Virus record (IMG/VR): IMGVR_UViG_3300047554_001053
Span: 1 to 21,372 of that record
Strand: one strand, 5' to 3'
From: a virus
Length of the DNA stretch: 21,372 nt
Both the position numbers and the translations under genes were made by a program. Position 1 is the first letter of the stretch, and each line of letters opens with the position of its first letter. This document shows, one piece after another, positions 617 through 19,945 of the stretch. The notes below the pieces were generated by a model that saw only the letters and a program-made list of their open reading frames with translations, searched no databases and had not been told where the DNA came from.

Positions 617-2410
617 TTACACCAAGTCATATTGATATGGAATTCTTGTTAAGCACCCTGTTGCATGATAAACACCGTAACGTCCACGATTTCGGCCTGA
701 TTCCGATATGAGATGAAGATTTTTTCTTGCTCTCGAACCCACCACATAAAGAAGCTTATTGGCACTATCTTTTGGATTGGGATCACTGAAGTGAGGAACC
801 ATACCCTCAAGCAATGAAAAGGCGATCACCACATCAAATTCGCCACCTTTCACGCCATGAATGGTCGACACAGTGATTCCACTTCTATTCTGAAATGCTT
901 TCCGAAAAAATTGGAGCTCCTCAACTCCTTGCACACCATCATTTGCCAAACGCTGAAGCCGACGTGCAGAACTTTCAAAGAAGGCATCGTAATGTTCTTT
1001 CAAATGAGGGACATTTTGAAAAGGGATACTTAGTTGTTTGCATATTTCAACAAAAAACTCTCTTAGAAAATTCAGCCCGTTGATCTCATTTATTTTTATG
1101 GTGTTACAAATTCGGAGCAAATCCTTTGAACTCAACCCGGACAGATGAAATCCGACTTGGCTTAATTCACTAAGCGTCTCGGAAGCCCACCTTAAGCGAC
1201 GCACGTACATGTGAGGCGAAGGTTCAGAGAGCGCAATACGTGCGAGTTTGTACCAAAAATTCTCCGTGTCTCTCGCGAATGGCACCATGCCCGGACCATC
1301 GAATTCATACTGGGGAAGCATGGCAGACAGACCACGAGTCATGGCTGCTAAGTATGGCCATTGGGGCGCAAGAATGCAAATCTCACTTGGTGGTACACCT
1401 GCAGTACCTATGCTGTATGTGACTAATCTTGCTACTTCACCAATCACATCTTGACGCATCACCATGGTGTTATAGGAAATTCGACTTGGATAATTAGCAG
1501 CAACTCCCGCGGGTGTAACGGTTGTATTAAAAACATTGAAATTTCCAAAGTAATCGATAAGGCGAGACGAAGATCGATAATTTCGCGAAAGCTCTCTTTC
1601 CTTAATAGGAATCCCAGTTATTTGTCGTAAATCGGCGACAGCAATGGGGTATCCACCCAGCGATCCAAAAATGCTCTGATTTGGATCGCCAACCATAAAA
1701 AGCCTTGTCTTCCCTGCTCCGGCCATGAGGATAGATCCTATGATGGAATACTGAATCTGCTTCGTATCTTGGTACTCATCCACAAGTACTATGGCAAACA
1801 TATGCGACAACAATCTACTGATCTCGGGGAGTCGTTCGACAAGCTTGTAGGAGTACCAAAGCAAAAGTTCAAAATCAATGAGATGCTTTTCAGACAAACG
1901 TTGAAAGTATTGTTCTTGAATAACATGCAAAGTGCCATGCTTGTTCGCATCCGGACATTCCAACTGATACCCACCAGGTACAAAGTGGTATCCGCAATCA
2001 AAGTAGCTTATTCGTTGAGCGGCGTAGGGCTTGCACAACTCCTCAAGCAACGTTTCACGCTCATGTTGGTCAATGATTCGATACCCGTTAGCAAGAGCTG
2101 ACTCATACAAGCCATATGGCTTAATAATCCATTCAAGACAGAATGCATGAATAGTTCCAATCCATAACCTTGAAGTGTCAACTCCCAAGTCTTCTATGCG
2201 CTCTTGAATTTCATCAGCTGCACGATGTGTGTAGGTAATAGCAATAACAAACTTGCGATCCGAATTTAACCGCGAGAGCTCATAGGCAATTTTGTATGTA
2301 AGCGTACGAGTCTTACCACTCCCGGGACAAGCGATAAGAAAAACACTTCCATCCTCCAGAACAGCCTCAGCCTGCTCCTCGTTTAGCTCTCGATCTGTCC
2401 AAGTAAACAT
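617..2410 (-). CDS. gajB: UvrD/Rep-family superfamily 1 helicase, GajB-like
   Basis: The 597-residue protein has the SF1A helicase motifs in order: a Q-motif (LNEEQAEAV, about 9-17), Walker A ACPGSGKT (27-34), Walker B VDEYQDT (210-216), motif III GDPNQSIFGSLGG (241-253), motif IV LSRNYRSS (274-281), motif V VSTIHGVKGGEFDVV (514-528) and motif VI LLYVVGSRARKNL (553-565). In Gabija systems a helicase of this class works with the OLD-family nuclease GajA. GajB proteins are usually nearer 500 residues, so this one is somewhat long. Its ATG shares one base with the stop of the upstream nuclease gene (TAATG), which implies translational coupling and a shared complex. It is the last gene of the caspase-nuclease-helicase operon. 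The Gabija assignment is inferred from gene pairing; a related but distinct OLD-UvrD system is possible. Confidence 0.85.
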   Translation of the reverse strand: MFTWTDRELNEEQAEAVLEDGSVFLIACPGSGKTRTLTYKIAYELSRLNSDRKFVIAITYTHRAADEIQERIEDLGVDTSRLWIGTIHAFCLEWIIKPYGLYESALANGYRIIDQHERETLLEELCKPYAAQRISYFDCGYHFVPGGYQLECPDANKHGTLHVIQEQYFQRLSEKHLIDFELLLWYSYKLVERLPEISRLLSHMFAIVLVDEYQDTKQIQYSIIGSILMAGAGKTRLFMVGDPNQSIFGSLGGYPIAVADLRQITGIPIKERELSRNYRSSSRLIDYFGNFNVFNTTVTPAGVAANYPSRISYNTMVMRQDVIGEVARLVTYSIGTAGVPPSEICILAPQWPYLAAMTRGLSAMLPQYEFDGPGMVPFARDTENFWYKLARIALSEPSPHMYVRRLRWASETLSELSQVGFHLSGLSSKDLLRICNTIKINEINGLNFLREFFVEICKQLSIPFQNVPHLKEHYDAFFESSARRLQRLANDGVQGVEELQFFRKAFQNRSGITVSTIHGVKGGEFDVVIAFSLLEGMVPHFSDPNPKDSANKLLYVVGSRARKNLHLISESGRNRGRYGVYHATGCLTRIPYQYDLV

Positions 2411-4551
2411 TAGACTATTGGCGCAAGAATGTCATGGATTTGATCACCGGGGAGAGAGACACGCATTTTTTCCTTGATATCAAGTAAATCAATTGCACTA
2501 TTACGATAGTCTTGCAAATTAGAAATCGCTATATCTGCAACCACCTGCGGAATGTCTTGACTCAATAGCGCTCGCTGCACACGGTACTTGAAAATATTGA
2601 AGAAGAGTTCCCGGCTCAAGCTTGGCCGAGCAAAGAAAATAGCATCTCGAATGTAATTTGGGATTACTGTTTTGTGAGATATCTGGTTAGACAGGAGGAT
2701 GGCAAACCACCCCTTTCCCTTATTTTTTGCCATCGTAAGAACCCTAGGACCAAAAAGTTCTTTACGCCCAGAAATCAACTCGGCCTCAGCCACATTAATC
2801 GTGGCAGGCTTGACATATACCTGCGAAACAACTTTTTTAACAGTATCGCCATTTCCTGCGGCGATGAAATCGACTTCAAAAGTGTGATCGGCGTAATAAA
2901 CAGAAAGCCAAGGGTTATCTTTAACAAATTCATCAAGCGCAACTTTTCGTTGAGCCCCTACTGTTTGGGAATTCAGAGCACTCTGTTTTGAGCTTGCTAA
3001 CGCTGAGGAGTCGCCAGCATTGGGTGTTGTATCGATAAAGGCTGCATCAAGATCTGTAATGATGCTGCATCGTTTACGTACTCTGTCATCATTGAAGATG
3101 ACGGCGACATTTTGAAAACCAGTACTACGGATGTTGATGAGACTGACACCAAGCTCATCTAGACTCAAACCGATGACCGCCTTAAACAAGGCAGGAACGA
3201 GAACCTCCTCCGCATCCCCTTCAACGAGCACGACGCTTTTTGCGAAAAGTAAGTTACTACGAACAGCATCCAAGTAACGCTGTAGGGTTCCTACCTGTTC
3301 TGGTGATAGGCCAGTTGCAGGTTGAAAAGACTCGCAAACGATACCTCTTCTACCAAGAATATTCACATTTTCGATATTGCTAACCTCCGAAATGTGCGTT
3401 GAATGTGTCGAATAAATGATCTGGGTATCTGCATACGCAATGCGATCAAAAAGCGCCTTCTGTATGTGGGTATGAATGTGTGCTTCTGGCTCTTCGATTA
3501 TCAAAAAGTTGGCAATCGATTGATGCGCTTGCTGGTATTTGAACTCAAGAAGCTTGAGGGTCAAATAGATTAGGTTAGCCCCACCCAAACTCAGTTCGTG
3601 AACAGCCCCCTCATAATTTTCCTCTGACTCTCCAACAAATAATCGCAAAGACTGAAAGAGCTTGTCAGCTTCAGCAGGTAATTCAGATCTAATTGAGAGC
3701 GCACGTGGCGAATATGTCTCTCCCGCTGCATCTTTGATCGTGTCTCTAATGTTGGATCGCACAACTTGAACATCATTAAGGTTTTCAATAGCATTGTTGA
3801 GTTCGACAACTTTTTCCACTATGGGCTGAAGTACGGCAGGGGCGATCTCTCCACTTTTAATCTTCAAAAGATTCAGTAACGGATTGGTCCGATTGTTGTG
3901 AAACTCTGAGACGACGTCGCGAAGTGCTTGGATGAAAGTGAAGGAAACCTCCTGCGATACCGATAGATATACAGGTAGTCGCGCCCCAATCCGTTGATCA
4001 TCTACCTCATTTCGGATAATGCAGTTATCAAAGTCTCCAACCAATTCTTTGTAGATAACGGGGTCACAAAAGTCAATGTCACTTCTACCAGTAAAAAGTG
4101 TTTCGTAGTCAGTTATGGATATTTGCTTACGCAACGCCTCCAAGCTAGTGTGATCACCATCATCAACTTGAGCCAGTTTCAGTCTAATATCCTTCTTGGG
4201 TCGAAAGATTAGTGTGTACGTTGCGCGAGCCACCAAACCGCCGTCTGGAATCACTCCCGCGCTGTGCTGAAAGAGCGCCTGAATGGCTTCATCCTCGCCT
4301 ATGTCTTCAAACTCTAGGCTAACAATGATCCAGTGACCACGCCAGCTAGACAATCCACGATGGAAATCCAGCTCATCTAATTTATGTGCCGCACGTAACA
4401 AATGGTCATCCAAGAGCAAACGTATCGCGCGGAAGAGGTTAGTTTTCCCCGAACCGTTTTCCCCAATGATGGTATTAACGCCTTTTTTGAAGATGAAAGT
4501 AGAGTTCGCAAAGTTGCGATAGTTGACAAGTCGAAGTTTGGAAATATGCAT
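2410..4551 (-). CDS. gajA: OLD-family ATP-dependent nuclease (AAA/ABC ATPase plus TOPRIM), GajA-like
   Basis: The 713-residue protein has an SMC/ABC-type ATPase: Walker A GENGSGKT (30-37), signature LSLGG (320-324), Walker B FLIIEEPEAH (349-358) and the H-loop STHS (381-384). A C-terminal TOPRIM nuclease domain follows, with acidic VEGDAE (443-448), ITDLD (498-502, two Asp) and a basic KNKGKGWFA element (609-617). This layout is that of class 2 OLD endonucleases, of which GajA is the defence member. GajA proteins are usually under 600 residues, so about 130 residues are extra here. The gene lies 37 bp after the caspase-like gene and overlaps the helicase start by one base. All catalytic motifs appear intact, so the protein is probably active. 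Confidence 0.88.
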   Translation of the reverse strand: MHISKLRLVNYRNFANSTFIFKKGVNTIIGENGSGKTNLFRAIRLLLDDHLLRAAHKLDELDFHRGLSSWRGHWIIVSLEFEDIGEDEAIQALFQHSAGVIPDGGLVARATYTLIFRPKKDIRLKLAQVDDGDHTSLEALRKQISITDYETLFTGRSDIDFCDPVIYKELVGDFDNCIIRNEVDDQRIGARLPVYLSVSQEVSFTFIQALRDVVSEFHNNRTNPLLNLLKIKSGEIAPAVLQPIVEKVVELNNAIENLNDVQVVRSNIRDTIKDAAGETYSPRALSIRSELPAEADKLFQSLRLFVGESEENYEGAVHELSLGGANLIYLTLKLLEFKYQQAHQSIANFLIIEEPEAHIHTHIQKALFDRIAYADTQIIYSTHSTHISEVSNIENVNILGRRGIVCESFQPATGLSPEQVGTLQRYLDAVRSNLLFAKSVVLVEGDAEEVLVPALFKAVIGLSLDELGVSLINIRSTGFQNVAVIFNDDRVRKRCSIITDLDAAFIDTTPNAGDSSALASSKQSALNSQTVGAQRKVALDEFVKDNPWLSVYYADHTFEVDFIAAGNGDTVKKVVSQVYVKPATINVAEAELISGRKELFGPRVLTMAKNKGKGWFAILLSNQISHKTVIPNYIRDAIFFARPSLSRELFFNIFKYRVQRALLSQDIPQVVADIAISNLQDYRNSAIDLLDIKEKMRVSLPGDQIHDILAPIV

Positions 4552-4588
4552 GTTTTATAAGTTTTCGCTTAGAGCGGAAGTTATTAGA

Positions 4589-6052
4589 TTATTTTTTACG
4601 AGCAGTCCATCCAATTGGAAATTCGATTGTTCCCTTACGAATTTTTCCGAGCGATGGATAGTTAAATTTCAAAAGATGATGAGGAACCACCATCTGTTCT
4701 GCAACGTAATGCTCAAAACGTTCAAGGCGCAACTTCAGGACATCCGGAAATTCATCAAGCTCAGGCATGTAGTCTTCATCCTCTAACCACAAAATATCCT
4801 GACCATTGCAGTGAAGGGATTTCAATGCATAGGCTTCATCTTTAGTCACAGTTATCACATCGACCGTAACTGCATGCTGCTTACCTGGCAGTGAATAAAA
4901 ATTCCTAGCCTCTGGAAGAAGGCATTCAGCAACAAAATCAAAACTTGATTGCAAGTCCTCATGTTGCTGAAGCTCAAAGACATCTTGGAATTTTTTCATC
5001 TTAAAGTCTTTCCGCAACATCGCATCTGGGCCATAAAAAATTTCAAAGATCATTCCATCGAGCAGTGCTTTACGTTTTTCGTTTTTGACATTTACTGTGT
5101 TTGATGCAAAATTTTTCAAATAAATTGAAGCACTCTTTGAGCCCCCACATGCAGCTTGATAAATGTTGCGGCCAACAACGAAAAGCGAATTCAATGACGC
5201 CCTATTAACGGACTCATTGGTGAATACATCTAATGCAGCATTCTGTCGATGCCAGTTCAAACTCTTCAACTCCTTAATACATTGGTGAGAAGGCTTAGAT
5301 TCATCTAGGATAAAAAATTTATCACCTAGCGATGATTTGTCATAAATATCGATGCGAGCACCCAAGCTGAGATTGAAGAAAAACTGACCTGAAAGTGATG
5401 TGTGCTCCCACGAAATTTGTTTACCCTTCGTGGCTGCACTTAGCGTATTGCGAACACGCTTAAACATATCTTCAATAGAGCAATCGGGTGTAGAGATATG
5501 CTGTAAAAGAGCATCTGTATAGGCTCCATTGCGGCCCAACCCATCTCCTGCAAGTTGACCAGGCGATGTTGCATAGGCAATTAATGTCCCTTTAGGTGCA
5601 TAAACAGGAGCCAAACCTCTCGCAGCTATTGAACGACTCCAAGCACGTTCGAATGGGTTATTTCTGCATGCATCAAGAACAATGATGCTGGTAGCACATT
5701 GGGATTTCTCCATAACCTCAATGATGCGATTAAGAGACATTGATGAATATTTTGCTGCCGACTCATCAGCAGCATCCGTGTTTACTGCAGCAAGATAGTT
5801 TTCACCGTCAATCTGCATTCCATGTCCTGCAAAAAAGAACAGGCCTATATCGCTCTCTACCAAGCTTTGCCCGAAATCTTTCAAAGCCCTATCCATATCC
5901 ACATTGGTACTGTCAGTTTTCAAAATAACTGAAAAACCACTATCACCAAGAACTTTCGCAATGTCATTTGCATCGTTAACAGGATTTTTAAGTGCTTCGA
6001 CATGCTCGTAGCTGGCATTACCAATCAAGAGCGCGCTCATTCGACGGGGCAT
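4589..6052 (-). CDS. caspase-like cysteine protease (peptidase C14 fold), first gene of the defence operon
   Basis: The first 230 or so residues of this 487-residue protein match a bacterial caspase/metacaspase domain. It begins ALLIGNASYEHVEALKNPVNDA, then has the catalytic His in FFFAGHG (His77) and the catalytic Cys in IIVLDACRNNPF (Cys129). The substrate-pocket region around TLIAYATSPGQ is also present. The remaining 250 residues have no feature I recognise; such C-terminal parts often sense a trigger or bind a partner. There is no signal peptide or membrane segment, so it should act in the cytoplasm. Bacterial caspases serve as suicide effectors in several anti-phage systems. Here the gene leads the operon that encodes the GajA/GajB-like pair, 37 bp upstream of the nuclease. 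A modest ribosome binding site (TAAGG) precedes the ATG. The role in Gabija-type defence is inference from position. Confidence 0.85.
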   Translation of the reverse strand: MPRRMSALLIGNASYEHVEALKNPVNDANDIAKVLGDSGFSVILKTDSTNVDMDRALKDFGQSLVESDIGLFFFAGHGMQIDGENYLAAVNTDAADESAAKYSSMSLNRIIEVMEKSQCATSIIVLDACRNNPFERAWSRSIAARGLAPVYAPKGTLIAYATSPGQLAGDGLGRNGAYTDALLQHISTPDCSIEDMFKRVRNTLSAATKGKQISWEHTSLSGQFFFNLSLGARIDIYDKSSLGDKFFILDESKPSHQCIKELKSLNWHRQNAALDVFTNESVNRASLNSLFVVGRNIYQAACGGSKSASIYLKNFASNTVNVKNEKRKALLDGMIFEIFYGPDAMLRKDFKMKKFQDVFELQQHEDLQSSFDFVAECLLPEARNFYSLPGKQHAVTVDVITVTKDEAYALKSLHCNGQDILWLEDEDYMPELDEFPDVLKLRLERFEHYVAEQMVVPHHLLKFNYPSLGKIRKGTIEFPIGWTARKK

Positions 6053-6251: not shown

Positions 6252-7610
6252 ATGAAAAATCCAGTAGATGACTTCGAGCTTCTCCAACAAGTACTCGAAA
6301 TCTATGACCAAACTTTCATTGGTGAATACCTGAACAAGCATTCCCCCGGTCAGTGGTGCAGGGAGACCATCAATCGTTGGCAAAGAGGCAAAGCTTCTCC
6401 TCGCTTGAGCCATCGTGAATACCAAGCCCTGCTCAAACTACTACCTGAGCGCCCTGCTCACTACGACAGTCCTGAATTTGACTTTGTTGACCTATTTGCA
6501 GGCATCGGCGGAATTCGTCGCGGTTTTGAAGAGATTGGTGGGCGCTGTGTCTTCACTAGCGAGTGGAACGAACCTGCCGTCAGAACATACAAGGCCAACA
6601 ACTACGCTGACCCTGACGCTCACACTTTCAACAGTGACATATGTGAAGTCACGCTCAGCAAACGTGATGACGTTACTCAAAAGCAAGTTAATCAGAACAT
6701 CAACAAGATGATTCCAGACCACGATGTGCTGCTTGCTGGGTTTCCTTGTCAGCCGTTTTCGATAGCGGGCGTGAGTAAGAAGAATGCACTGGGTCGCAAA
6801 CACGGGTTTGAAGATAAAACCCAAGGCACACTATTTTTCGATGTCGCACAGATTTTGGATGTGAAGCGCCCAGCCGCATTCCTTCTGGAAAATGTGAAGA
6901 ACCTCAAGAGCCATGACAAAGGTCGAACTTTCAAGATCATCATGGAGACTCTTGACGAACTCGGCTACTGGGTTGCAGATGTTGACGTCAACGATTCAAC
7001 CGATCCAAAGGTCATCGATGGTCAGCACTTTGTGCCTCAACACCGTGAACGTATCGTCCTTGTCGGTTTCCGTCGCGATCTGAACATTCACAAAGACTTC
7101 ACTCTCACAGATATCAAAAAGGTTTTTCCTAAAAAGAAACCAAAACTTGGCGACATCCTTGATGACTCAATTGATGACAAGTACATCCTGACACCTAAGC
7201 TCTGGGAATACCTATTCAACTACTCCATCAAGCACAAAGCCAAAGGCAATGGATTCGGTTATGGGCTCGTCAAGAAAAGCGACGTAACCCGCACACTCTC
7301 GGCTCGTTACTACAAAGACGGTTCAGAAATTCTTATTGATCGTGGATATGACCACGAAAAGGATCTGCATGATCCAATCAACATGAAGAATCGTCCTCGC
7401 CGCCTGACACCTCGGGAGTGTGCTCGCCTAATGGGATATGACAAGCCCACAGGAAATGATTTTCGGATTCCCGTATCAGACACGCAGGCCTACAAACAAT
7501 TCGGAAACTCGGTTGTGGTCCCAGTCTTTGCAGCGGTTGCAAAACTGATGAAACCCTACATCAAGGCTGCTAAAGATAAGCAAGCACGTCAAAAGCGTAA
7601 AGCTGCATGA
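6252..7610 (+). CDS. dcm: DNA (cytosine-5) methyltransferase, Dcm-like, likely CCWGG-specific
   Basis: The 452-residue protein carries the C5-methyltransferase motifs: I DLFAGIGG (80-87), [10 protein letters not shown] with catalytic Cys166, VI ENVKN (213-217), [16 protein letters not shown] (263-274) and [10 protein letters not shown] (417-425). From memory it resembles E. coli Dcm along its length, including blocks near [12 protein letters not shown] and [13 protein letters not shown] in the target-recognition part, so it should methylate the inner C of CCWGG. The 75-residue N-terminal extension before motif I, with TINRWQRG, is shared with Dcm and M.EcoRII and looks helix-turn-helix-like, which suits autoregulation. 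No clear Shine-Dalgarno precedes the ATG. It faces an MvaI-family nuclease gene with 12 bp between the two stops, forming a restriction-modification pair. No vsr mismatch-repair gene is present in the window. Confidence 0.93.
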
Positions 7611-7622
7611 CGCTTGTGCGCA

Positions 7623-9077
7623 TCAGGCCTTTGCGAGATTACAAATACGGACATGTTCGTAGAGGTTTTCTACAGCGCGTGTAATGTCGTTAACACGCCA
7701 TTGCGCGCGTCGTTTGTTTTTGGACGGGTCTGCAGGAACAAACTTAGGAGCCGGGTCCAGAAAAATTGTCCCGTTTGCAATAGCTTCAAACAACCGCTCT
7801 GCGGATGAGTCCTCACAAACGATGACCCGAGGCTCATAAGTCACGAGGTACTGAAAACCCTCATCAAACTCCTGCTGGCTTGTGTTTTCCTGCTTTGTGG
7901 CAGAGATGTAAACGGCTTTATTGTGCTTAGCACCCCAGTTATTCATCAAGCGTTCAAAGCTCCAACCTGCAGCGACTTTTCCTTCATCATCTACAAGCAC
8001 AACTTCCACAGCATCCATTTTTGACGTCAGTGATGTTGATGGGTCATACGAGAAGGCGACTCGATTACCGCTCGCATCTCGAATCCAATCTGACTTTGAG
8101 TTTCCGGGTTCTGCAACGTGGTACTCCTGAACTTTCAAGGTAAGCCCCGTTCTTTTGCAACGGACGTTAGCTCTGTGAATACCAGTGACCCGATATTCAT
8201 TACCGCCCTCAGTTGTGTAGCCGTAGGTACGCATGAACACTTCGAAGCTTTCGGCGTACAGACCAAAATCAGGCTCTGGCGTAAAAAGTGTGGTCTTGAG
8301 CTGCGTGTGTGTTTTCAATTCAATGCCGTACAAATCTCCATCTTTTCCTGAGTTCGGAATGATCCCGAGTGCATGCTCAAGCGTGTAGCCACAAACCTGA
8401 GTACCCGTAAACGGCAAAGTTCTGCCAAATTTATCGAGGCGACATCCTTTAAGTGGTCGAGAAACAATCTCTGCGAGTTGCGACAACAATTGTTCGCTGT
8501 AGGTTTGCTGAATGCTCAACAACTTACAAACACGCGACCCCTCAAGTCCTGCAAGTGCATTGACCTCTGCAAGAAAGGCTTCAGATGGATCTAGGCAGAC
8601 CATCCCGAGACAAGCGCCACTAGGCAATCGCCCCAACACCAGCACTCTCTTACTTTCAGGATTCGCTTTCGTGAACGCAATCGACAAAGAGTGCGGCATT
8701 GTGTTTTCAACCGACACAAAACCTGATAACCGCGCTTCTGGGTACTGCGTGTAAACAATAACTTTGACGTTCTTTGCTTTGATACGCGAACCATCAGTCT
8801 TAAGCCATTCAAAGCTAGTAAAAACAGCCTCAGGGATATGACTCCCTGGCTTTGCAGTTGATTTATGACTTGTGCTTGCTCCGCGCTCGGCGAGCTTCAA
8901 GTCAAAGATGTTGTACAGAGAAGTAAAGCTACTGGCGAAATAAACTTGATTCTTATCGTTTGCATTTTTTGGCAAAACCTTAAGCACGGCCAAATCAGCT
9001 CCCAACTGCTGAAGCTTGTCCCTGATCTCCGAAACTGATCCGACCCGATGCTCAAACTCTGCTTGACTGCCTGTCAT
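7623..9077 (-). CDS. type II restriction endonuclease, MvaI/BcnI family
   Basis: In this 484-residue protein the C-terminal half matches the MvaI/BcnI nuclease family. A GYTLEHALGIIPNSGKDGDLYGIELK segment contains the PD-(D/E)xK site (Asp248, Glu253, Lys255), followed by the family's extended beta-rich body. MvaI cuts CCWGG and BcnI cuts CCSGG; pairing with a Dcm-like methyltransferase favours CCWGG here. MvaI and BcnI are single-domain enzymes of about 240-250 residues, so the first 200 or so residues are an additional domain of unknown role. The ATG follows a GGGAGAAG ribosome binding site. The gene is on the same strand as, and 169 bp downstream of, the phage lysis cassette, while its methyltransferase lies opposite. 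Confidence 0.85.
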   Translation of the reverse strand: MTGSQAEFEHRVGSVSEIRDKLQQLGADLAVLKVLPKNANDKNQVYFASSFTSLYNIFDLKLAERGASTSHKSTAKPGSHIPEAVFTSFEWLKTDGSRIKAKNVKVIVYTQYPEARLSGFVSVENTMPHSLSIAFTKANPESKRVLVLGRLPSGACLGMVCLDPSEAFLAEVNALAGLEGSRVCKLLSIQQTYSEQLLSQLAEIVSRPLKGCRLDKFGRTLPFTGTQVCGYTLEHALGIIPNSGKDGDLYGIELKTHTQLKTTLFTPEPDFGLYAESFEVFMRTYGYTTEGGNEYRVTGIHRANVRCKRTGLTLKVQEYHVAEPGNSKSDWIRDASGNRVAFSYDPSTSLTSKMDAVEVVLVDDEGKVAAGWSFERLMNNWGAKHNKAVYISATKQENTSQQEFDEGFQYLVTYEPRVIVCEDSSAERLFEAIANGTIFLDPAPKFVPADPSKNKRRAQWRVNDITRAVENLYEHVRICNLAKA

Positions 9078-13350: not shown

Positions 13351-13893
13351 TCACCGGGCAAGTCCCGGAAACTCTGTCGAGGTGTAGAGCCGACCCGGAA
13401 ACGCTTTGTTCCCGATATCGACCATTCGCGCTCTTGCAGTCACACGCATCACATCCGCCTCCACCTCAGTCAGCACCAGCGTGATGGGAGGATCCATCTG
13501 AGGCCCCTCCATATCGTTTGACAAGTACGGTCGATAAGTGACTTCGATAGAAGCTTCTGACTCGGACGCAGCATCAAGGTGTTTGACGATCTCGCGGGAG
13601 ACGTTGTCCAAGGTCAGCACGACCTCAGGAACCGGTGCAATGTCCACAGGTGGCAAATCCAAATCAAACCCCATGGCCACAAACCTCACTGTTTGGCTGG
13701 GGTTCAACGGTGCCGAGGCTTCGAGGCGCGCAAAGAGGTCTTGTTGGTCTCGCACCACTCGGATGGCCGTCGTCACGCCCGACTCGTTTTTAAAGTCAGG
13801 ATGGCGCAGCTCCAAGGTATGCAGGATCACCACATCTGAAGGCGAACTCGCGTACGCCTCCTTCAAAGCGTCACTCAACGACACATCAGGCAT
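13351..13893 (-). CDS. DUF1833-family phage tail protein
   Basis: The 180-residue protein matches my memory of the DUF1833 family: LSDALKEAYASSPSDVVILHTLELRHP at the start, TLDNVSREIVKHL in the middle, then VTYRPYLSNDMEGPQMDPP and a C-terminus ending FPGLAR. Members are found between tape measure and NlpC/P60 genes and are probably distal-tail or hub components, in the place of lambda L. Its ATG overlaps the stop of the radical SAM gene by 8 bases, so the modifying enzyme and this structural protein are made from one transcript. Confidence 0.88.
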   Translation of the reverse strand: MPDVSLSDALKEAYASSPSDVVILHTLELRHPDFKNESGVTTAIRVVRDQQDLFARLEASAPLNPSQTVRFVAMGFDLDLPPVDIAPVPEVVLTLDNVSREIVKHLDAASESEASIEVTYRPYLSNDMEGPQMDPPITLVLTEVEADVMRVTARARMVDIGNKAFPGRLYTSTEFPGLAR

Positions 13894-15235
13894 GCTCTAC
13901 CTTGATGGGAATGACACGACGCTCTTTCGCTTCGGAGTGCTCACGAACCAATCCGAAGATATCTCGCCGTTCCTGCGGTAAATCTCCCTCGATGTAGAAC
14001 GGGAAGCAGCCAGTGAGGAACTCAATGCCAGCGGCCAAGAACGGCACGTTGTCGGCGTAGGAGGCATCGCACCCTGCCGTCCACAAGAGGCCGTCCAAGA
14101 ACATGCATGAGCCTTTGCACAACTGAAGCACAGGACAGTTTGAACAACCATCTCGCTTGCTCCAATGCGTGGCGCTGCGCATCTTGACTGCTTGAAGCTG
14201 AGAGATGTGCCCAATCTTGTGTGACTCGCCGTTTGGAGCGACAGCGGCTGCGCTCACGTTCTGGCAAGTCAACACATTGCCGTTCAGATCAACCGCGAGG
14301 TTGTCGGTACGGTCCATGCCACACTTTTGGCCCAACGCGCTGGCAGGACGACCTTGGACTACAGACTCCACAAAATCCATGATCTTCTTGCGACCGATGT
14401 CAAAACTGGTCACTGCACCTGCACGCAACTCCTTGAACGCATAGGCACTGAAAGTGACGCGCTCCGCAGAAGTCTGAAACGTGGAAGCCAATCCACCCTC
14501 GTCATACGGGTCAATGAAAGCTCCCTCGCCAATGACGACATCCTCACCAAAGCGCTCGCGTAGCCATGCCTGCACATGCGCGCGACTTGGATTGTTTGCA
14601 TGAATCATGGCGTTGATGCTGATCCGCCCCTCAGGCTTCAAACGTGCGTACAAATCAAAGATGGCAGCTCGCTTTTGTGGATCATCCAAAGGATCTGCAC
14701 CGCGCGCGTGATAACCAGGACCATCGTGCGACAAACCCACAGAGAATCCCAAACGGTCAATCCATGCGTTCTTGTCCGCATCCAACAAACTGCCATTCGT
14801 AATTATGCTGAACTGAGCCTTGGGGTACATCGCCCTCAACCGCTCAGCCAGTGGTTTTAAGGTCTTCCAGTAAACCAGCGGTTCACCGCCCCAAAACTCA
14901 ATGCGTTCTGGAGGTTCAATCAGCGCATCGGTCAATGAGTTTAGAAAAGCATCAACCTCTTCTGAATTCGTTTGATCGGCATGGGGCACAAATCGTTGTG
15001 AGCAGTATGTGCAGGCGTAATTGCAAAGCAGCCCAAGACTGATCTTGAGCACTCGCACATTGCCCTTGCGACCGGGTTGATCTTTGGCAACAACCATCGC
15101 ATCACGCCAAGCGCGTGCTTTGACTGGAACGACCGACTGACCATGACTCCAAGAAAGGCTAGAAGTTTGGTTGTTGTAGACCAGCGAGTCTTCTGTGCCG
15201 TCTGGCTTGATCACATAGATGCGGAACTCAGCCAT
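13886..15235 (-). CDS. radical SAM/SPASM-domain enzyme in the tail operon, putative peptide/protein maturase
   Basis: The 449-residue protein has the radical SAM 4Fe-4S motif CNYACTYC (Cys71, Cys75, Cys78), then EFWGGEPL typical of the fold. The C-terminal SPASM domain keeps the full pattern CX13GX4C - CX2CX5CX3C - C (from KCGMDR to TAGCDAS), which binds auxiliary iron-sulfur clusters. SPASM enzymes include anaerobic sulfatase maturases and RiPP maturases that form thioether or carbon-carbon cross-links, or epimerise residues. The first 60 or so residues could be a substrate-binding region, but no clear RRE fold is recognised. The gene overlaps its neighbours by 8 bases on each side, placing it firmly in the late tail operon. 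The likely substrate is the Cys-rich fibre-tip protein encoded three genes upstream; that link is inference. Confidence 0.93.
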   Translation of the reverse strand: MAEFRIYVIKPDGTEDSLVYNNQTSSLSWSHGQSVVPVKARAWRDAMVVAKDQPGRKGNVRVLKISLGLLCNYACTYCSQRFVPHADQTNSEEVDAFLNSLTDALIEPPERIEFWGGEPLVYWKTLKPLAERLRAMYPKAQFSIITNGSLLDADKNAWIDRLGFSVGLSHDGPGYHARGADPLDDPQKRAAIFDLYARLKPEGRISINAMIHANNPSRAHVQAWLRERFGEDVVIGEGAFIDPYDEGGLASTFQTSAERVTFSAYAFKELRAGAVTSFDIGRKKIMDFVESVVQGRPASALGQKCGMDRTDNLAVDLNGNVLTCQNVSAAAVAPNGESHKIGHISQLQAVKMRSATHWSKRDGCSNCPVLQLCKGSCMFLDGLLWTAGCDASYADNVPFLAAGIEFLTGCFPFYIEGDLPQERRDIFGLVREHSEAKERRVIPIKVEHA

Positions 15236-15839
15236 GGATGCGCTCCACTTTGATATTGAAAAGAATGTTCATGAACGGTTGCTCCCCAAAGTAGGGTTTC
15301 TGAAAATGAATCGCTCTGGCATCAAAGGCGATCAACAGACCGCGATGAGGTTTGATCCAGAACTTGGATGGAGACTCCCAAGGCATGAGCAACCCAGCAA
15401 ACCCGGACGAGCGCCAGGCGGGGTTACAGATGGCGAAGCCATTGGGTGCGAACTGATTGATCTGCGGCATCAAGCCAAGCGAAGGGTCTAGCTCGGGGCC
15501 GAGTGGAAAGTAGATAGCCTGCACATCACATTCGTCTTCGTCGTTGTGCGGCATGATTTCGACGCCGCTAGAACGAACAACCTCTCGCCCTTGCACATGG
15601 ACCACTCGCCCGCTTGGGCCAAGTAGTTCCTGCACTTTGGACAAGACTGCCGTCTGCAATGTTTGGCAGCGCGGTGAATGTCCATCAAAGATGTTGTGGT
15701 TCTCGCGTTCCCAGATCTGATCGCCTGTTTGCATGCGCTCGTTCAATTGCAAGAGTTCTTCATAGAGCCCCTGATCAAACACCGCATCCATTCCAAGTGA
15801 CCAGATCCCTGTTTTAAGAGGGAAAAGGTCAAGGATCAT
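15228..15839 (-). CDS. 2OG-Fe(II) oxygenase-like protein (putative hydroxylase)
   Basis: The 203-residue protein shows a double-stranded beta-helix oxygenase pattern: an HxD pair (His98, Asp100, in MPHNDED), then the C-terminal block PHRGLLIAFDARAIHFQKPYFG with the distal His178, followed by FMNILFNIK. These residues would bind Fe(II). The usual Arg that binds 2-oxoglutarate about ten residues past the last His is not in its expected place (sequence EQPFMN), so activity or co-substrate may differ. Such enzymes hydroxylate proline, asparagine or other side chains. The gene overlaps the 280-residue protein before it (ATGA) and the radical SAM gene after it (8 bases). A role in modifying a tail protein is inferred. 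Confidence 0.6.
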   Translation of the reverse strand: MILDLFPLKTGIWSLGMDAVFDQGLYEELLQLNERMQTGDQIWERENHNIFDGHSPRCQTLQTAVLSKVQELLGPSGRVVHVQGREVVRSSGVEIMPHNDEDECDVQAIYFPLGPELDPSLGLMPQINQFAPNGFAICNPAWRSSGFAGLLMPWESPSKFWIKPHRGLLIAFDARAIHFQKPYFGEQPFMNILFNIKVERIHG

Positions 15840-16678
15840 GGAACGCTCACCACCAAGTCATCCGTGCCGCTGAAGTACTTGAAGCCAACTTTGATCTTGA
15901 CTTCGGCGCCAGAGCTCAGACCATCTGTTTTGAAAACAGTGCTACCCGCCCCCTCAACAGTCATCACGCGACGCTCGCGCAAGAAACCAGCGGTTGAGTC
16001 CAAGTAGATCTCTGCTTCGTGATGGGTAATTGGCTGGCCATCTGGCTCTTCCAGTCTGAAATTGACAATCAACCCCTCGTCCGATTCAACGCTGGGTGTG
16101 AACCGAACCACGGGCAAAGACTCCATGCGTGCCAGAGCCAATGTCACACAAGGCTCGGTATCCAAGTTCCCTGTTGTTTTGACGAGCACAGGATCGAACA
16201 CATTGAAGCCAAGCAACCAGCCTGAGAGTTCCGATGTTTTGAAGGGCACCAAGATGTGGCCAATGGGGTGAGCCTGAACCACGGTGGCGTGATATGCCTG
16301 CGCGTCCATCTTGCTCGCCAAAGTGGCGACATACAGGTTGGGCGTGTGATCAAAGAGGCTTTCACGCGCGCCCTCTGATGCCCAGCCCTTCGGGGCATAC
16401 AACATGAACGAAGCATGGTCGCCAAACTCAGCATGTGATTTGAGTGTTTCCAAGTCCAGAGATCGCTGGTAGGCGCCTTCATCAAAAACACCCCAATCTC
16501 CCCGCCACTCGGTAATCAACGATTCATCAAAGAACTTGCATCCGTTGACATCCTCTTTTTGAGGATTCCCCACAAAGTTCCTCTGCACAACTGATCTGAT
16601 CTGAAACTTCAGAATCGTGCCGGTTAGAACAACATCAAGCGCAAACGGTGTATTTTTTGTGGCTAGGTGAAGTTTCAT
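15836..16678 (-). CDS. tail-fibre-associated protein with Ig-like C-terminal domain, function unknown
   Basis: I do not recognise a family. The chosen ATG at 16678 follows AAGGA by 9 bases and gives 280 residues; an ATG further upstream (16711) would overlap the fibre-tip gene and has no ribosome binding site. The first 185 or so residues are mixed polar and aromatic (for example GDWGVFDEGAYQRSLDL and ASFMLYAPKGW). The last 90 residues alternate short beta-type segments (VRFTPSVESDEGL, EIYLDSTAGFL, VKIKVGFKYFSG) like an Ig-like domain of phage structural proteins. There is no signal peptide. It stands between the Cys-rich fibre tip and the two enzymes, so it may be a tail decoration, a fibre chaperone or another substrate. 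Confidence 0.7.
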   Translation of the reverse strand: MKLHLATKNTPFALDVVLTGTILKFQIRSVVQRNFVGNPQKEDVNGCKFFDESLITEWRGDWGVFDEGAYQRSLDLETLKSHAEFGDHASFMLYAPKGWASEGARESLFDHTPNLYVATLASKMDAQAYHATVVQAHPIGHILVPFKTSELSGWLLGFNVFDPVLVKTTGNLDTEPCVTLALARMESLPVVRFTPSVESDEGLIVNFRLEEPDGQPITHHEAEIYLDSTAGFLRERRVMTVEGAGSTVFKTDGLSSGAEVKIKVGFKYFSGTDDLVVSVP

Positions 16679-16689
16679 CTTTTCATTCC

Positions 16690-17289
16690 TTAGCAACAGT
16701 TGCAATCGCAATTGCAGTTGTATCGAGTGCCATAAGCACCAAGTCGTATGTTTCCACCGTTATCAAACAGCGTCGGTAACGTGTTGCTTTGATTGGGTGC
16801 AAATTCGCCGCAGTTGTAGCAGTTGTCTGTCACTTGACAGTTAGGTGCACCTGACCAAGCTGAACTTGGGTTTCCATTAATTCGAATGCAATTACTCACG
16901 TTATTGAAAAAACAGTCATGCAACCAACCGTAGTTGGCCGTCCACATCTGGCCACCGTTATTCATGTACATGTCCCAGTTGCCATCGGATTTCAAAAATC
17001 CCATCAGCCCTTGGTTGTGATGAAACGAACGCGTGCCCCAGTCCGTATCGACCATGTCGATGTAATTCGCAGTGGATGCGACTTGCAGACGCGGAACGGA
17101 CAGGGTTCCCGTAATCGTGTCACCCGCCTTGTTGACCTTGGTCGACAAGTCAAGCGCAGCAGTACCGGCTAAGGTAACTTGTCCTTTGCTGTTGACCGTC
17201 ACCACGGGGATTTGCGAAGCAGACCCATAGGTTCCTGCAGATACACCCGAGTCTTTGAGGCCCTCGGGTGGGATTTGGGTAATGGGCAC
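16690..17289 (-). CDS. short tail-fibre tip protein with Cys-rich C-terminus, candidate substrate of the radical SAM enzyme
   Basis: The protein has 199 residues from a GTG start preceded by a near-perfect AAGGAGG site. The N-terminal half is fibre-like: GVSAGTYGSASQIPVVTVNSKGQVT is a common fibre motif, followed by DTITGTLSVPRL and a WGTRSFHHNQGLMGFL block seen near the distal ends of fibres. After residue 125 the character changes: ten cysteines (126, 134, 151, 157, 160, 192, 194, 196, 198, 199), with none earlier. Nine of them follow Asn or Asp, and the protein ends YNCNCDCNCC. No SDxRLK-type S74 chaperone domain is present at the C-terminus. It starts 25 bp after the long fibre gene. The tail could form disulfides, bind metal or be enzymatically cross-linked; the last is suggested by the nearby radical SAM gene. 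Confidence 0.85.
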   Translation of the reverse strand: MPITQIPPEGLKDSGVSAGTYGSASQIPVVTVNSKGQVTLAGTAALDLSTKVNKAGDTITGTLSVPRLQVASTANYIDMVDTDWGTRSFHHNQGLMGFLKSDGNWDMYMNNGGQMWTANYGWLHDCFFNNVSNCIRINGNPSSAWSGAPNCQVTDNCYNCGEFAPNQSNTLPTLFDNGGNIRLGAYGTRYNCNCDCNCC

Positions 17290-17314: not shown

Positions 17315-19945
17315 CTACAGATACCGAACAACAATTCGCACCCCGTTTAAGGGCGCAGATGTGAATCTCAAGGTGGCACCGCTATTGACCAACACATACG
17401 CATCCAACGAGTCTTGAATGACGTTGGCAACGGTCACCATGAGCTTGGTGACACTCGCCGCTGCCGTGGTGAGGGCAAAGTCAGTGGCACTGCCGTTTCC
17501 CGTGAACACCTGCGGCGCAACGCTCGAACCTTGCGCGCTAGCTGCCGCAGCTTGTGCCTGCGTGGCATAAGTCTGGGCATTGGTTGCTGAGGTGGAAGAA
17601 GCAGTGGCACTTGTTGCAGCATTGGTGGCCGAGGTCGATGCCTGAGAAGCAGACGTACTCGCTGCACTTGCCGAACTTGCAGCACCAGTTGCGGAGCTAC
17701 TGGCTTCTGCGGCCTTAGTTATGGCTGTCGCCGCAGACGTTGCTGCATCAGAGGCTTTGGTAGTCGCCGTTGCAGCAGAGGTAGCTGATGCGGTTGCGGA
17801 AGTCGCTGCGGCAGATGCAGACGAGGCTGCACTCGTTGCCGACGCCGCTGCTTCACCTGCTTTAGTAGTGGCTGTTGTCGCTGAGCTCGCAGCTGCAGTG
17901 GCAGAACCAGATGCGTCAGACGCCTTGGTCGTGGCGGTCGCAGCTGAGGCCGAGGCAGAAGTCGCAGACCCAGAAGCATCCGTTGCCTTTTGGGTTGCCA
18001 CAGCACTACTCGCAGCGGCTGCACCTGCGTGGTACTTAGCTGAGTACTCCGTCGAGCCTGAGACCGTGCCAGTCGTCTTCGTTGCCCACTCTTGTGCAGC
18101 AGCGGCACCTGACTGCGCTTCCTTATCCAAATACCGAACACTGATAAGGACACCATTGCCCGGCGCTGAGCTGAATCGAAGCGTGGTCGTTGTGGGCGTG
18201 GTGTACGCATCCACAGGCGCTTGCTGCACCCCAGCAACCGAGACCAACAAAGCACCGGGATAAGAGACTCCGCGACTGATCGTGAAATCCGTCGCCACAC
18301 CATTGCCCGTGAAAGTCTCCGCCGGAATGATGGTGTTGGTCGTCACCGCTGCGGCAGAACCTGCCGCTTGCGCTGCCCAGTACTTGGCTGAGTAACCCGT
18401 CCCGTCAACCGTCGCCGCAGTCTTCTCCGCCCAATCCGCCGCTTTAGTGGCTTGCGTTTGAGCTGAAGACAGAGAAGTCGCGGCATTTGTTGCGCTGGTT
18501 GAAGCAGCACTCGCAGACGAAGCAGATGCGTTTGCACTGGCCAATGCCTCTGAGGCCTTGGTCGTTGCCGTCGTTGCAGAACCTGCTGCGGCGCTCGCAG
18601 AAACGGCAGCACTCGTTGCACTAGAACCTGCGTTCGTCGCAGAGGTTGCGGCAGCCGTGGCGCTTGCAGACGCATCACTTGCTTTGGTGCTGGCCGTGTT
18701 TGCAGAGCCAGATGCCGCAGTCGAAGATGCACCTGCATTGGTTGCAGATGTCGCCGCCGCAGTGGCTTGTGCTGTTGCCGTTGTTGCTGAGGATGCAGCG
18801 CTACTGGCGGACGCAGCACTCTCCGAGGCCTTGGTCGTAGAAGTACTGGCCGCGCCTGCCGCAGCCGTGGCACTCGCCGCCGCATCACTCGCTTTTTGAC
18901 TGGCAGTTGCCGCAGAAGCCGTGATGGACTGGGCGTAGTACTTGGCCGAGTAATCAGTGCCACTGACAGGCGCACTTGTTTTGGTCGCCCAGTCTTGCGC
19001 GGTATTAGCACTCGTCGCAGCTGCACTCGCTGAACTCGAAGCACTCGATGCACTGCTAGATGCATCGGTGGCTTTAAACGCTGCAGTGGTCGCGGAGCTG
19101 GCAGCAGCAGTGGCTGATGTAGCAGCACTATTGGCAGAACCAGTAGCCGCACTGGCTTGTGTCGTTGCAGTTGCAGCAGAAACTGCTGCATTGCTCGCAG
19201 ACGTAGCCGCGTCACTGGCCTTGTTACTGGATGTGGTCGCGGAAGCTGCAGAGGCTGAAGCACTCGTTGCAGCCGCAGAAGCTGAAGCACTAGATGCGCT
19301 TGCACTGCTTGACGCTGCCTGCGCTTGGTATTTCGCCGAATACTCAGAGCCCTGCACAGGCCCCGTGGTCTTGGTCGCCCAATCCATAGCGGCAGCGGCA
19401 CCGGTCTGGCTCTCTTTATCCAACATCCGCGCGGTGATGCTCACCCCATTCAAGGGAGCAGTCACAAACCTCAGCGTTCTGGAATCAAACAGCGAATAGG
19501 CATCCACGGGTGTTTGCAACACACTGGCCACCGTGACTTGCAATGCACCGGGATGACCCACCGCATAGTCAAGCGCAAAGTCAGTCTGAGTCCCGTTTCC
19601 CACCCATGTCTTGGTTGGAATCACCACGGCACTGGTTGCCGCGTCTGCTCTAGCCTTGACCTCTGCCAGCGTTGCCGCTGCGTCTGCTGCTTTGGACGTG
19701 GACAGATTGGCACTGCTCGTGGAAATGCCAGCTTGCCTTGTGGCCTCCCCCACCTGAGCTGTGAGCTCTGTGCGGGACGCCGCCAAATCAAGTTCAACCT
19801 GATGGATAGCCTTGGCCACCGTTTTGACAGGACCACCCTCGGTGACCACATCCGTCTGGCTGTTGCCATGCACCACTTGGTGCAACAAGGACACATCAAG
19901 CTCAGCCTTGTTGACTGTCGCTTCTAACCGTTCTTGCAGGTTCAT
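17315..19945 (-). CDS. long Ala/Ser/Thr-rich phage tail fibre protein
   Basis: The 876-residue protein has three copies of a roughly 65-residue module (about 113-178, 545-609, 813-876), each with TGNGxxTDF, a VxVAxVxQ core, DAY, TLRF and a final RxLDKE or RYL. Four copies of a WATKTxxPVxGxxYSAKY element start near 188, 318, 503 and 619. Long low-complexity linkers of Ala, Ser and Thr with regular TKASDA-like heptads lie between (about 203-317, 341-500, 642-806). This is like lambda Stf and other side or central fibres, in which the linkers form extended trimeric rods. It follows the tape measure and a short tail gene. Its C-terminus ends inside the third module, so the receptor tip is probably supplied by the separate Cys-rich protein. 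Confidence 0.9.
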   Translation of the reverse strand: MNLQERLEATVNKAELDVSLLHQVVHGNSQTDVVTEGGPVKTVAKAIHQVELDLAASRTELTAQVGEATRQAGISTSSANLSTSKAADAAATLAEVKARADAATSAVVIPTKTWVGNGTQTDFALDYAVGHPGALQVTVASVLQTPVDAYSLFDSRTLRFVTAPLNGVSITARMLDKESQTGAAAAMDWATKTTGPVQGSEYSAKYQAQAASSSASASSASASAAATSASASAASATTSSNKASDAATSASNAAVSAATATTQASAATGSANSAATSATAAASSATTAAFKATDASSSASSASSSASAAATSANTAQDWATKTSAPVSGTDYSAKYYAQSITASAATASQKASDAAASATAAAGAASTSTTKASESAASASSAASSATTATAQATAAATSATNAGASSTAASGSANTASTKASDASASATAAATSATNAGSSATSAAVSASAAAGSATTATTKASEALASANASASSASAASTSATNAATSLSSAQTQATKAADWAEKTAATVDGTGYSAKYWAAQAAGSAAAVTTNTIIPAETFTGNGVATDFTISRGVSYPGALLVSVAGVQQAPVDAYTTPTTTTLRFSSAPGNGVLISVRYLDKEAQSGAAAAQEWATKTTGTVSGSTEYSAKYHAGAAAASSAVATQKATDASGSATSASASAATATTKASDASGSATAAASSATTATTKAGEAAASATSAASSASAAATSATASATSAATATTKASDAATSAATAITKAAEASSSATGAASSASAASTSASQASTSATNAATSATASSTSATNAQTYATQAQAAAASAQGSSVAPQVFTGNGSATDFALTTAAASVTKLMVTVANVIQDSLDAYVLVNSGATLRFTSAPLNGVRIVVRYL
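17528..18028 (-). repeat. low-complexity Ala/Ser/Thr codon repeats in the fibre gene (C-terminal linker)
   Basis: This stretch encodes fibre residues about 640-806. It is made of short degenerate repeats of Ala, Ser and Thr codons with recurring TKASDA and SATSAAS units. The repeats make long open frames on the other strand and in the shifted frame that are not genes. Such DNA can gain or lose units by recombination and change fibre length. Confidence 0.8.
18446..19339 (-). repeat. low-complexity Ala/Ser/Thr codon repeats in the fibre gene (N-terminal linkers)
   Basis: This stretch encodes fibre residues about 203-500, two Ala/Ser-rich linkers divided by one YSAKY element near 318-336. The repeat unit is not exact at the DNA level, so it is an old, diverged repeat rather than a recent tandem expansion. 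Confidence 0.8.

Follow-up and report, generated by a model that had tools for sequence, protein, structure and literature searches.

Why would a phage place a radical SAM enzyme among the genes that build its tail, and on what would such an enzyme act? These questions are raised by a virus record of 21,372 bases (this whole stretch of DNA is called the window hereafter) whose tail module is encoded on the minus strand. The module comprises the end of a tape measure gene and genes for a PHROG 384 structural protein, an 876-aa fiber, a 199-aa short fiber, a companion protein, a 203-aa protein, a 449-aa radical SAM protein, a DUF1833 protein, an NlpC/P60 protein, and a J-like tip protein. The original prediction held that four consecutive tail genes at positions 13886-17289 cooperate to mature a fiber tip. 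All four genes are present at this location on the minus strand, and the gene content is directly evident from the features below. Judging from the sequences and their genomic contexts, we consider it probable that these genes constitute a phage-encoded maturation cassette for tail-fiber tips.

17315..19945, minus strand: long Ala/Ser-rich tail-fiber protein, 876 aa, directly upstream of the tip gene (PHROG tail fiber matches)
16690..17289, minus strand: short tail-fiber tip protein, 199 aa, GTG start, proposed substrate (matches to tail-fiber PHROG 8443 and 33642; tail-fiber homologs in isolated phages)
16693..16719, minus strand: C-terminal NCNCDCNCC tail, proposed modification site (sequence; two-way association with the enzyme)
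15836..16678, minus strand: companion, 280 aa from ATG, C-terminal Ig-like domain (homologs in 178 loci; model pLDDT 92.9; phage-only fold relatives)
15228..15839, minus strand: 2OG-Fe(II) oxygenase-like protein, 203 aa, with H98, D100, and H178 (AlphaFold model pLDDT 91.9; best Foldseek matches are prolyl hydroxylases, E ~5e-6; homologs in 166 loci)
13886..15235, minus strand: radical SAM/SPASM enzyme, 449 aa (Pfam Radical_SAM 32.8 bits; TIGR04085 above cut-off; PHROG 1802, E=1e-58; ten cluster Cys in at least 157 of 159 rows)
15002..15025, minus strand: CX3CX2C cluster motif, CNYACTYC at residues 71-78 of the enzyme (sequence; invariant in a 15-member alignment)
13351..13893, minus strand: DUF1833 minor tail protein, 8-base overlap with the enzyme gene (PF08875, E=8e-43)

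The predicted coupling of these genes by short overlaps was correct for 4 bases between the companion and oxygenase genes (15836-15839), 8 bases between the oxygenase and enzyme genes (15228-15235), and another 8 bases that the enzyme gene shares with the DUF1833 gene (13886-13893). The companion gene most likely does not overlap the tip gene, because its probable start is the ATG at 16678 (moved from a TTG at 16711), which follows a good ribosome-binding site (AAGGA, ~8 bases upstream).

Two other regions of the window carry recognizable systems. Positions 617-6052 (minus strand) encode a complete Gabija-type pair (PADLOC: GajB 821 bits, GajA 1018 bits) with a caspase-domain (Peptidase_C14) gene directly upstream. 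Positions 6252-9077 encode a C-5 cytosine methylase (plus strand) facing an MvaI/BcnI-type restriction endonuclease (minus strand), a type II restriction-modification pair adjoined by a glucosaminidase-type lysis gene.

An Intact Radical SAM/SPASM Enzyme

The proposal that the 449-aa protein is a full radical SAM/SPASM enzyme is confirmed. A CX3CX2C motif and a GGE motif (WGGEP at residues 115-119), together with a Pfam match above cut-off, place it in the radical SAM superfamily, and a TIGR04085 score of 36.1 bits against a cut-off of 27 places it among SPASM-domain enzymes. The seven-Cys SPASM pattern (CX9-15GX4C - CX2CX5CX3C - C) is complete, consisting of C305, C324, C364, C367, C373, C377, and C389. 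The cluster residues are conserved in relatives: both radical SAM motifs and all ten cluster Cys residues are invariant among 15 aligned members that are 35-69% identical to the window enzyme, and in a broader alignment with 159 rows each SPASM Cys is kept by 157-159 of them. Neither Pfam nor NCBIfam gave a match to a RiPP recognition element in the enzyme, whose N-terminal 60 residues lie outside the model; this is a point against the maturation reading.

The specific function of the enzyme is less readily assigned from its relatives. It is a member of PHROG 1802, a family that carries a domain name (radical SAM domain-containing protein) and no assigned function. The best NCBIfam models are mostly peptide maturases, all of which score far under their cut-offs. 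Among solved structures, those of anaerobic sulfatase maturases and 5wgg are some of the closest. Identification as a PapB ranthipeptide maturase, the first of these models, was rejected on a score of 63.5 bits against a cut-off of 340 (NF047865). Likewise, we rejected an anaerobic sulfatase maturase (TIGR03942, 46 versus 349 bits; no sulfatase among the scanned genes of the window) and viperin (NF038283, 52 versus 180 bits).

Enzyme and Cysteine Tail Occur Together

The short fiber protein has the Cys-rich end that had been described for it, terminating in YNCNCDCNCC. To survey viral contigs from the enzyme side, we used the best 80 of 420 relatives, which are those closest to the window. Where these viral relatives have sufficient upstream sequence, almost all are accompanied by a protein that ends in an alternating (xC)n run. 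Under a fixed rule, a tailed fiber-like protein is found nearby on the same strand in 54 of 58 informative viral loci from this set and in 50 of 62 bacterial-genome loci, mostly prophage, compared to 4/58 and 3/62 on the opposite strand. Reading frames were called mechanically, and the denominators are set by flank limits.

Of the four viral exceptions, two have the motif further upstream, one has a degenerate version of it (TACNCAGGACDCG), and one is a fragment. The twelve genome exceptions include one with the motif ~11 kb away and six solitary chromosomal enzymes of a single clade from Variovorax, Ramlibacter, and a gammaproteobacterium (loci L266, L267, L268, L270, L272, and L273). This clade, which keeps the enzyme without a tailed neighbor, counts against the reading that the tail is the substrate.

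The same association is observed when the search is run from the tail. A DNA pattern for NCNC[ND]C[ND]C, blind to the enzyme, matched at least 120 stretches in viral contigs; 21 stretches whose flanks were too short and 15 that lacked an in-frame reading frame were set aside. Among the matches listed, the enzyme lies within 6 kb on the same strand in 80 of 81 informative tail loci, where the sole exception has a motif that is not C-terminal, and the enzymes form 43 clusters when grouped at 70% identity. Thus, the expected co-occurrence of the SPASM enzyme with Cys-tailed fiber proteins held in both search directions. The pattern named in advance as contrary to it, regular occurrence of the enzyme in phages lacking a Cys-rich fiber protein, was looked for and did not appear.

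Fiber bodies lacking the tail were also sought in viral contigs, where each of the best 80 matches proved to be a close relative ending in NC or Hint. Because these gave no contrast, isolated phages served as controls. The complete phages Dolphis, Itty13, S-RIP2, and Alfirin have homologous fiber bodies with other ends and no enzyme relative, whereas Achromobacter phages JWF and 2-1 carry both tail and enzyme. The four tail-less phages are few and diverse, and so they illustrate the rule rather than prove it. A relative covering most of the enzyme is present in only 3 of 50,697 records of isolated phages. A tblastn search of isolated phages with a small NC protein gave no match, for which low-complexity filtering is possibly responsible.

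Among 399 genomes of the Limnohabitans order, most motif matches consist of (AACTGC)n repeats that lie in no suitable reading frame. The three true C-terminal or Hint-linked tails in these genomes are accompanied by the enzyme in 3/3 cases, one of which is in a genome reached via the enzyme beforehand. The single motif match among 293 genomes of the Thalassobacter order is not a C-terminal tail.

The Tail Is a Conserved Peptide on Many Fiber Bodies

Seventy distinct motif strings have X positions that are ~63% Asn, 14% Asp, and 13% Ala, with Gly, Ser, and Thr rare; part of this Asn/Asp bias comes from the search itself because the DNA pattern favored these two residues. A single tail peptide can have as many as 13 distinct DNA encodings, and therefore it is the peptide rather than the DNA that is kept. 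The tail is found on 19 clusters of fiber bodies, the largest of which was merged by single linkage. The motif is not a product of chance, given that this alternating sequence, variously encoded, lies at the end of fiber-like proteins whose bodies are unrelated and whose genes neighbor this enzyme.

The motif is usually followed by zero to four residues. A Hint domain starts at the motif in Achromobacter phages JWF and 2-1, in Burkholderia paludis MSh1, and at four further loci (L153, L275, L277, and L278), and a Peptidase_S74 chaperone lies just past it at locus L117. Hint and S74 modules are self-processing. Judging from domain order, maturation would here too leave the motif at or close to the end of the protein.

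The proposed window substrate is a 199-aa fiber protein with the motif at its end, and tail-bearing relatives include forms of 67-133 aa. It does not resemble a small precursor from which a leader is removed to release a peptide, and the window cassette has no protease. A putative dedicated repeat-core substrate encoded near the enzyme, another hallmark of RiPP systems, is present at the loci counted above (54/58, 50/62, and 80/81).

Variations on this arrangement occur among the relatives. Three loci (L145 5630-6542 in reverse-strand coordinates, L074 5711-6582, and L058 6011-7090) have three consecutive small paralogs, each with its own (NC)n end, ahead of one enzyme, forming putative multi-substrate cassettes. 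In bacterial genome G115, locus L400 (4640-6793 and 11011-15269, reverse-strand coordinates) encodes a tandem pair of proteins that open with a Tat-like segment (SRRQALLGALLAG) and carry NCNCNCNCCNC followed by Hint. The locus also holds several genes for radical SAM enzymes and one that resembles the companion gene. For this set, use on a cell surface outside phages is possible.

Companion, Oxygenase, and Additional Partners

The companion was proposed to be Ig-like, which is accurate for its C-terminal part only. The model as a whole is confident but unfamiliar in fold, and its good fold matches are uncharacterized phage proteins. The gene directly before the enzyme at locus L271 (7078-7998) encodes a tail-tube protein (PF18906) whose final stretch resembles the C-terminal domain of the companion.

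The 203-aa protein was correctly recognized as 2OG-Fe(II) oxygenase-like. Its model has the double-stranded beta-helix fold with an HxD...H triad, in which H98 and H178 are invariant and D100 is present. The window protein itself has no Pfam match, and several relatives match PF13759. It shares the fold and iron ligands of 2OG-Fe(II) prolyl hydroxylases and PF13759 proteins but lacks the canonical basic residue that binds the 2OG carboxylate after the distal His; this residue is Arg in many relatives and is absent there in the window clade. For this reason, the model makes activity of the window protein likely but not certain, and the lack of the residue counts against the proposed role.

Although common, neither the companion nor the oxygenase accompanies the enzyme at every locus. 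In several phages, the tailed fiber gene directly precedes the enzyme gene with neither partner between them, and therefore the fiber and the enzyme look like the core of the system. At some loci there is in addition a member of the flavin halogenase family or of the fatty acid desaturase family, or more than one radical SAM enzyme. Tryptophan-halogenase or fatty-acid-desaturase family genes adjoin the enzyme at L117 (7308-7813), L151 (3637-4839), and L094 (3886-4605), which hints at further modification.

Proposed Function and Its Alternatives

The near-constant placement of the enzyme beside NC-tailed fiber proteins, in the tail gene clusters of a broad set of phages, suggests that these phages chemically finish their own fiber tips. 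By this association, the (NC)n tail is very likely to be the substrate of the enzyme, which would act on this C-terminal segment before or during virion assembly. Among possible products, thioether or other Cys-centered cross-links within the tail are the candidates we favor, albeit tentatively, because they fit both the enzyme class and the pattern of fixed Cys residues with mostly small, beta-carbon-bearing neighbors. With somewhat greater reserve, we suggest that the oxygenase hydroxylates the same protein, plausibly at the Asn or Asp residues of the motif, as it may by analogy with known Asn/Asp hydroxylases. The companion would play a structural or presenting part that is specific to phages. 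Where relatives carry Hint or S74 modules directly after the motif, these modules would be cut off to leave the motif as the mature end. The modified tip could then serve to stabilize the fiber, to contact the receptor, or to assist DNA delivery.

One alternative is that the tail forms a metal-binding or disulfide tip, in which three chains join their CxC ladders and the enzyme epimerizes residues or aids cluster loading rather than making cross-links. The alternating residues do set every Cys on one face of a strand, and HxH iron sites exist in the T4 gp37 and pyocin fibers (PMC6116203). However, metal binding alone requires no enzyme, and yet the tail almost only occurs with the enzyme. The number of Cys residues per tail shows no even/odd preference, which argues against simple disulfide pairing and led us to reject such pairing as the sole role of the tail. 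Overall, we regard this alternative as unlikely.

It is also conceivable that the enzyme modifies another tail protein, such as the companion or the long fiber, and that the NC tail is merely co-inherited. Homologs of the companion are as widespread as those of the oxygenase, as would suit the companion as a target, and genetic linkage is compatible with such a target too. We nevertheless find this explanation improbable, since the tail sits on unrelated bodies in varied gene orders, the enzyme directly follows the tailed protein in some phages, and in four complete phages fiber bodies without the tail are also without the enzyme. More remote still is the notion that the enzyme is a metabolic or defense moron, such as a sulfatase maturase or viperin, that resides in a tail operon. 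The deposited annotation in phage JWF is indeed anaerobic sulfatase-maturating enzyme, and there are weak matches to pVip and anSME models, but these scores are far under the curated cut-offs given above, no sulfatase is nearby among the scanned genes, the gene overlaps tail genes, and the link to the Cys tail is strict.

Modification of the fiber tip by the enzyme therefore remains our preferred explanation, and it may extend well beyond the window. We speculate, somewhat hesitantly, that phages of many bacterial hosts share a RiPP-like virion chemistry, in which a radical SAM enzyme and a hydroxylase, sometimes with other enzymes, turn an exposed (NC)n fiber end into a cross-linked, non-proteinogenic, host-contacting tip for which Hint and S74 modules serve as removable caps. 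If true, viruses would contact their receptors through a class of chemistry that is new. To our knowledge, the receptor-binding tips of phages are usually regarded as polypeptide without modifications, a view on which both fiber engineering and structure prediction rest. If many phage lineages finish their tips by radical chemistry, then recombinant fibers may be incomplete when the enzymes are left out, and a large, so far unexplored repertoire of enzymes that modify structural proteins opens up. For PHROG 1802, an uncharacterized phage family, this points to a function that can be tested, already now in isolated phages (Achromobacter JWF and 2-1) and in cultured lysogens. JWF is a temperate siphovirus available in culture (PMC3899368).

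Comparison with Known Systems

We found no published phage-tail radical SAM maturation system in the open-access literature searched. Campylobacter phages carry 11-12 radical SAM genes (PMC2853527), but these probably do not represent the same system, as the first 50 kb of phage CP220 contains no C-terminal NC tail. Two other phages have distinctive repeat proteins near radical SAM genes. In Thermus phage Cumys (L283 3976-6266), a radical SAM gene beside the baseplate genes is immediately preceded by the gene for a 343-aa protein that consists mostly of H-x-D repeats, an arrangement that recalls His-Xaa-Ser systems. In Erwinia jumbo phage Asesino (L284 2441-6302), small proteins with Cys at approximately every fourth residue are encoded near two radical SAM genes, one of which matches the TIGR04115 CXXX-repeat maturase (E=4e-35).

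The HxH iron-binding fiber tips of T4 gp37 and R-pyocins resemble the NC tail in having a short, alternating, metal-capable motif in a trimeric fiber, but they use His rather than Cys and involve no modifying enzyme. SCIFF, CXXX-repeat (TIGR04115), and Cys-every-fifth systems likewise place a dedicated radical SAM enzyme beside a Cys-repeat substrate. They differ in their repeat and enzyme subfamily, and by their names and definitions have no link to phage virions.

PapB and other freyrasin-type ranthipeptide maturases (NF047865) share with the window enzyme the radical SAM and SPASM domains and a Cys-rich repetitive substrate encoded nearby, except that here the substrate would be a fiber protein rather than a small precursor peptide. 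Within CX3D/E motifs, PapB joins the Cys to the acidic residue, Asp or Glu (PMC9413430). Such motifs are absent here, where strictly alternating xC runs allow only odd Cys-to-X distances. Because CX3D spacing is impossible in an alternating run, any thioether would need another spacing or other acceptors. The system would be a RiPP-type maturation moved onto a virion protein.
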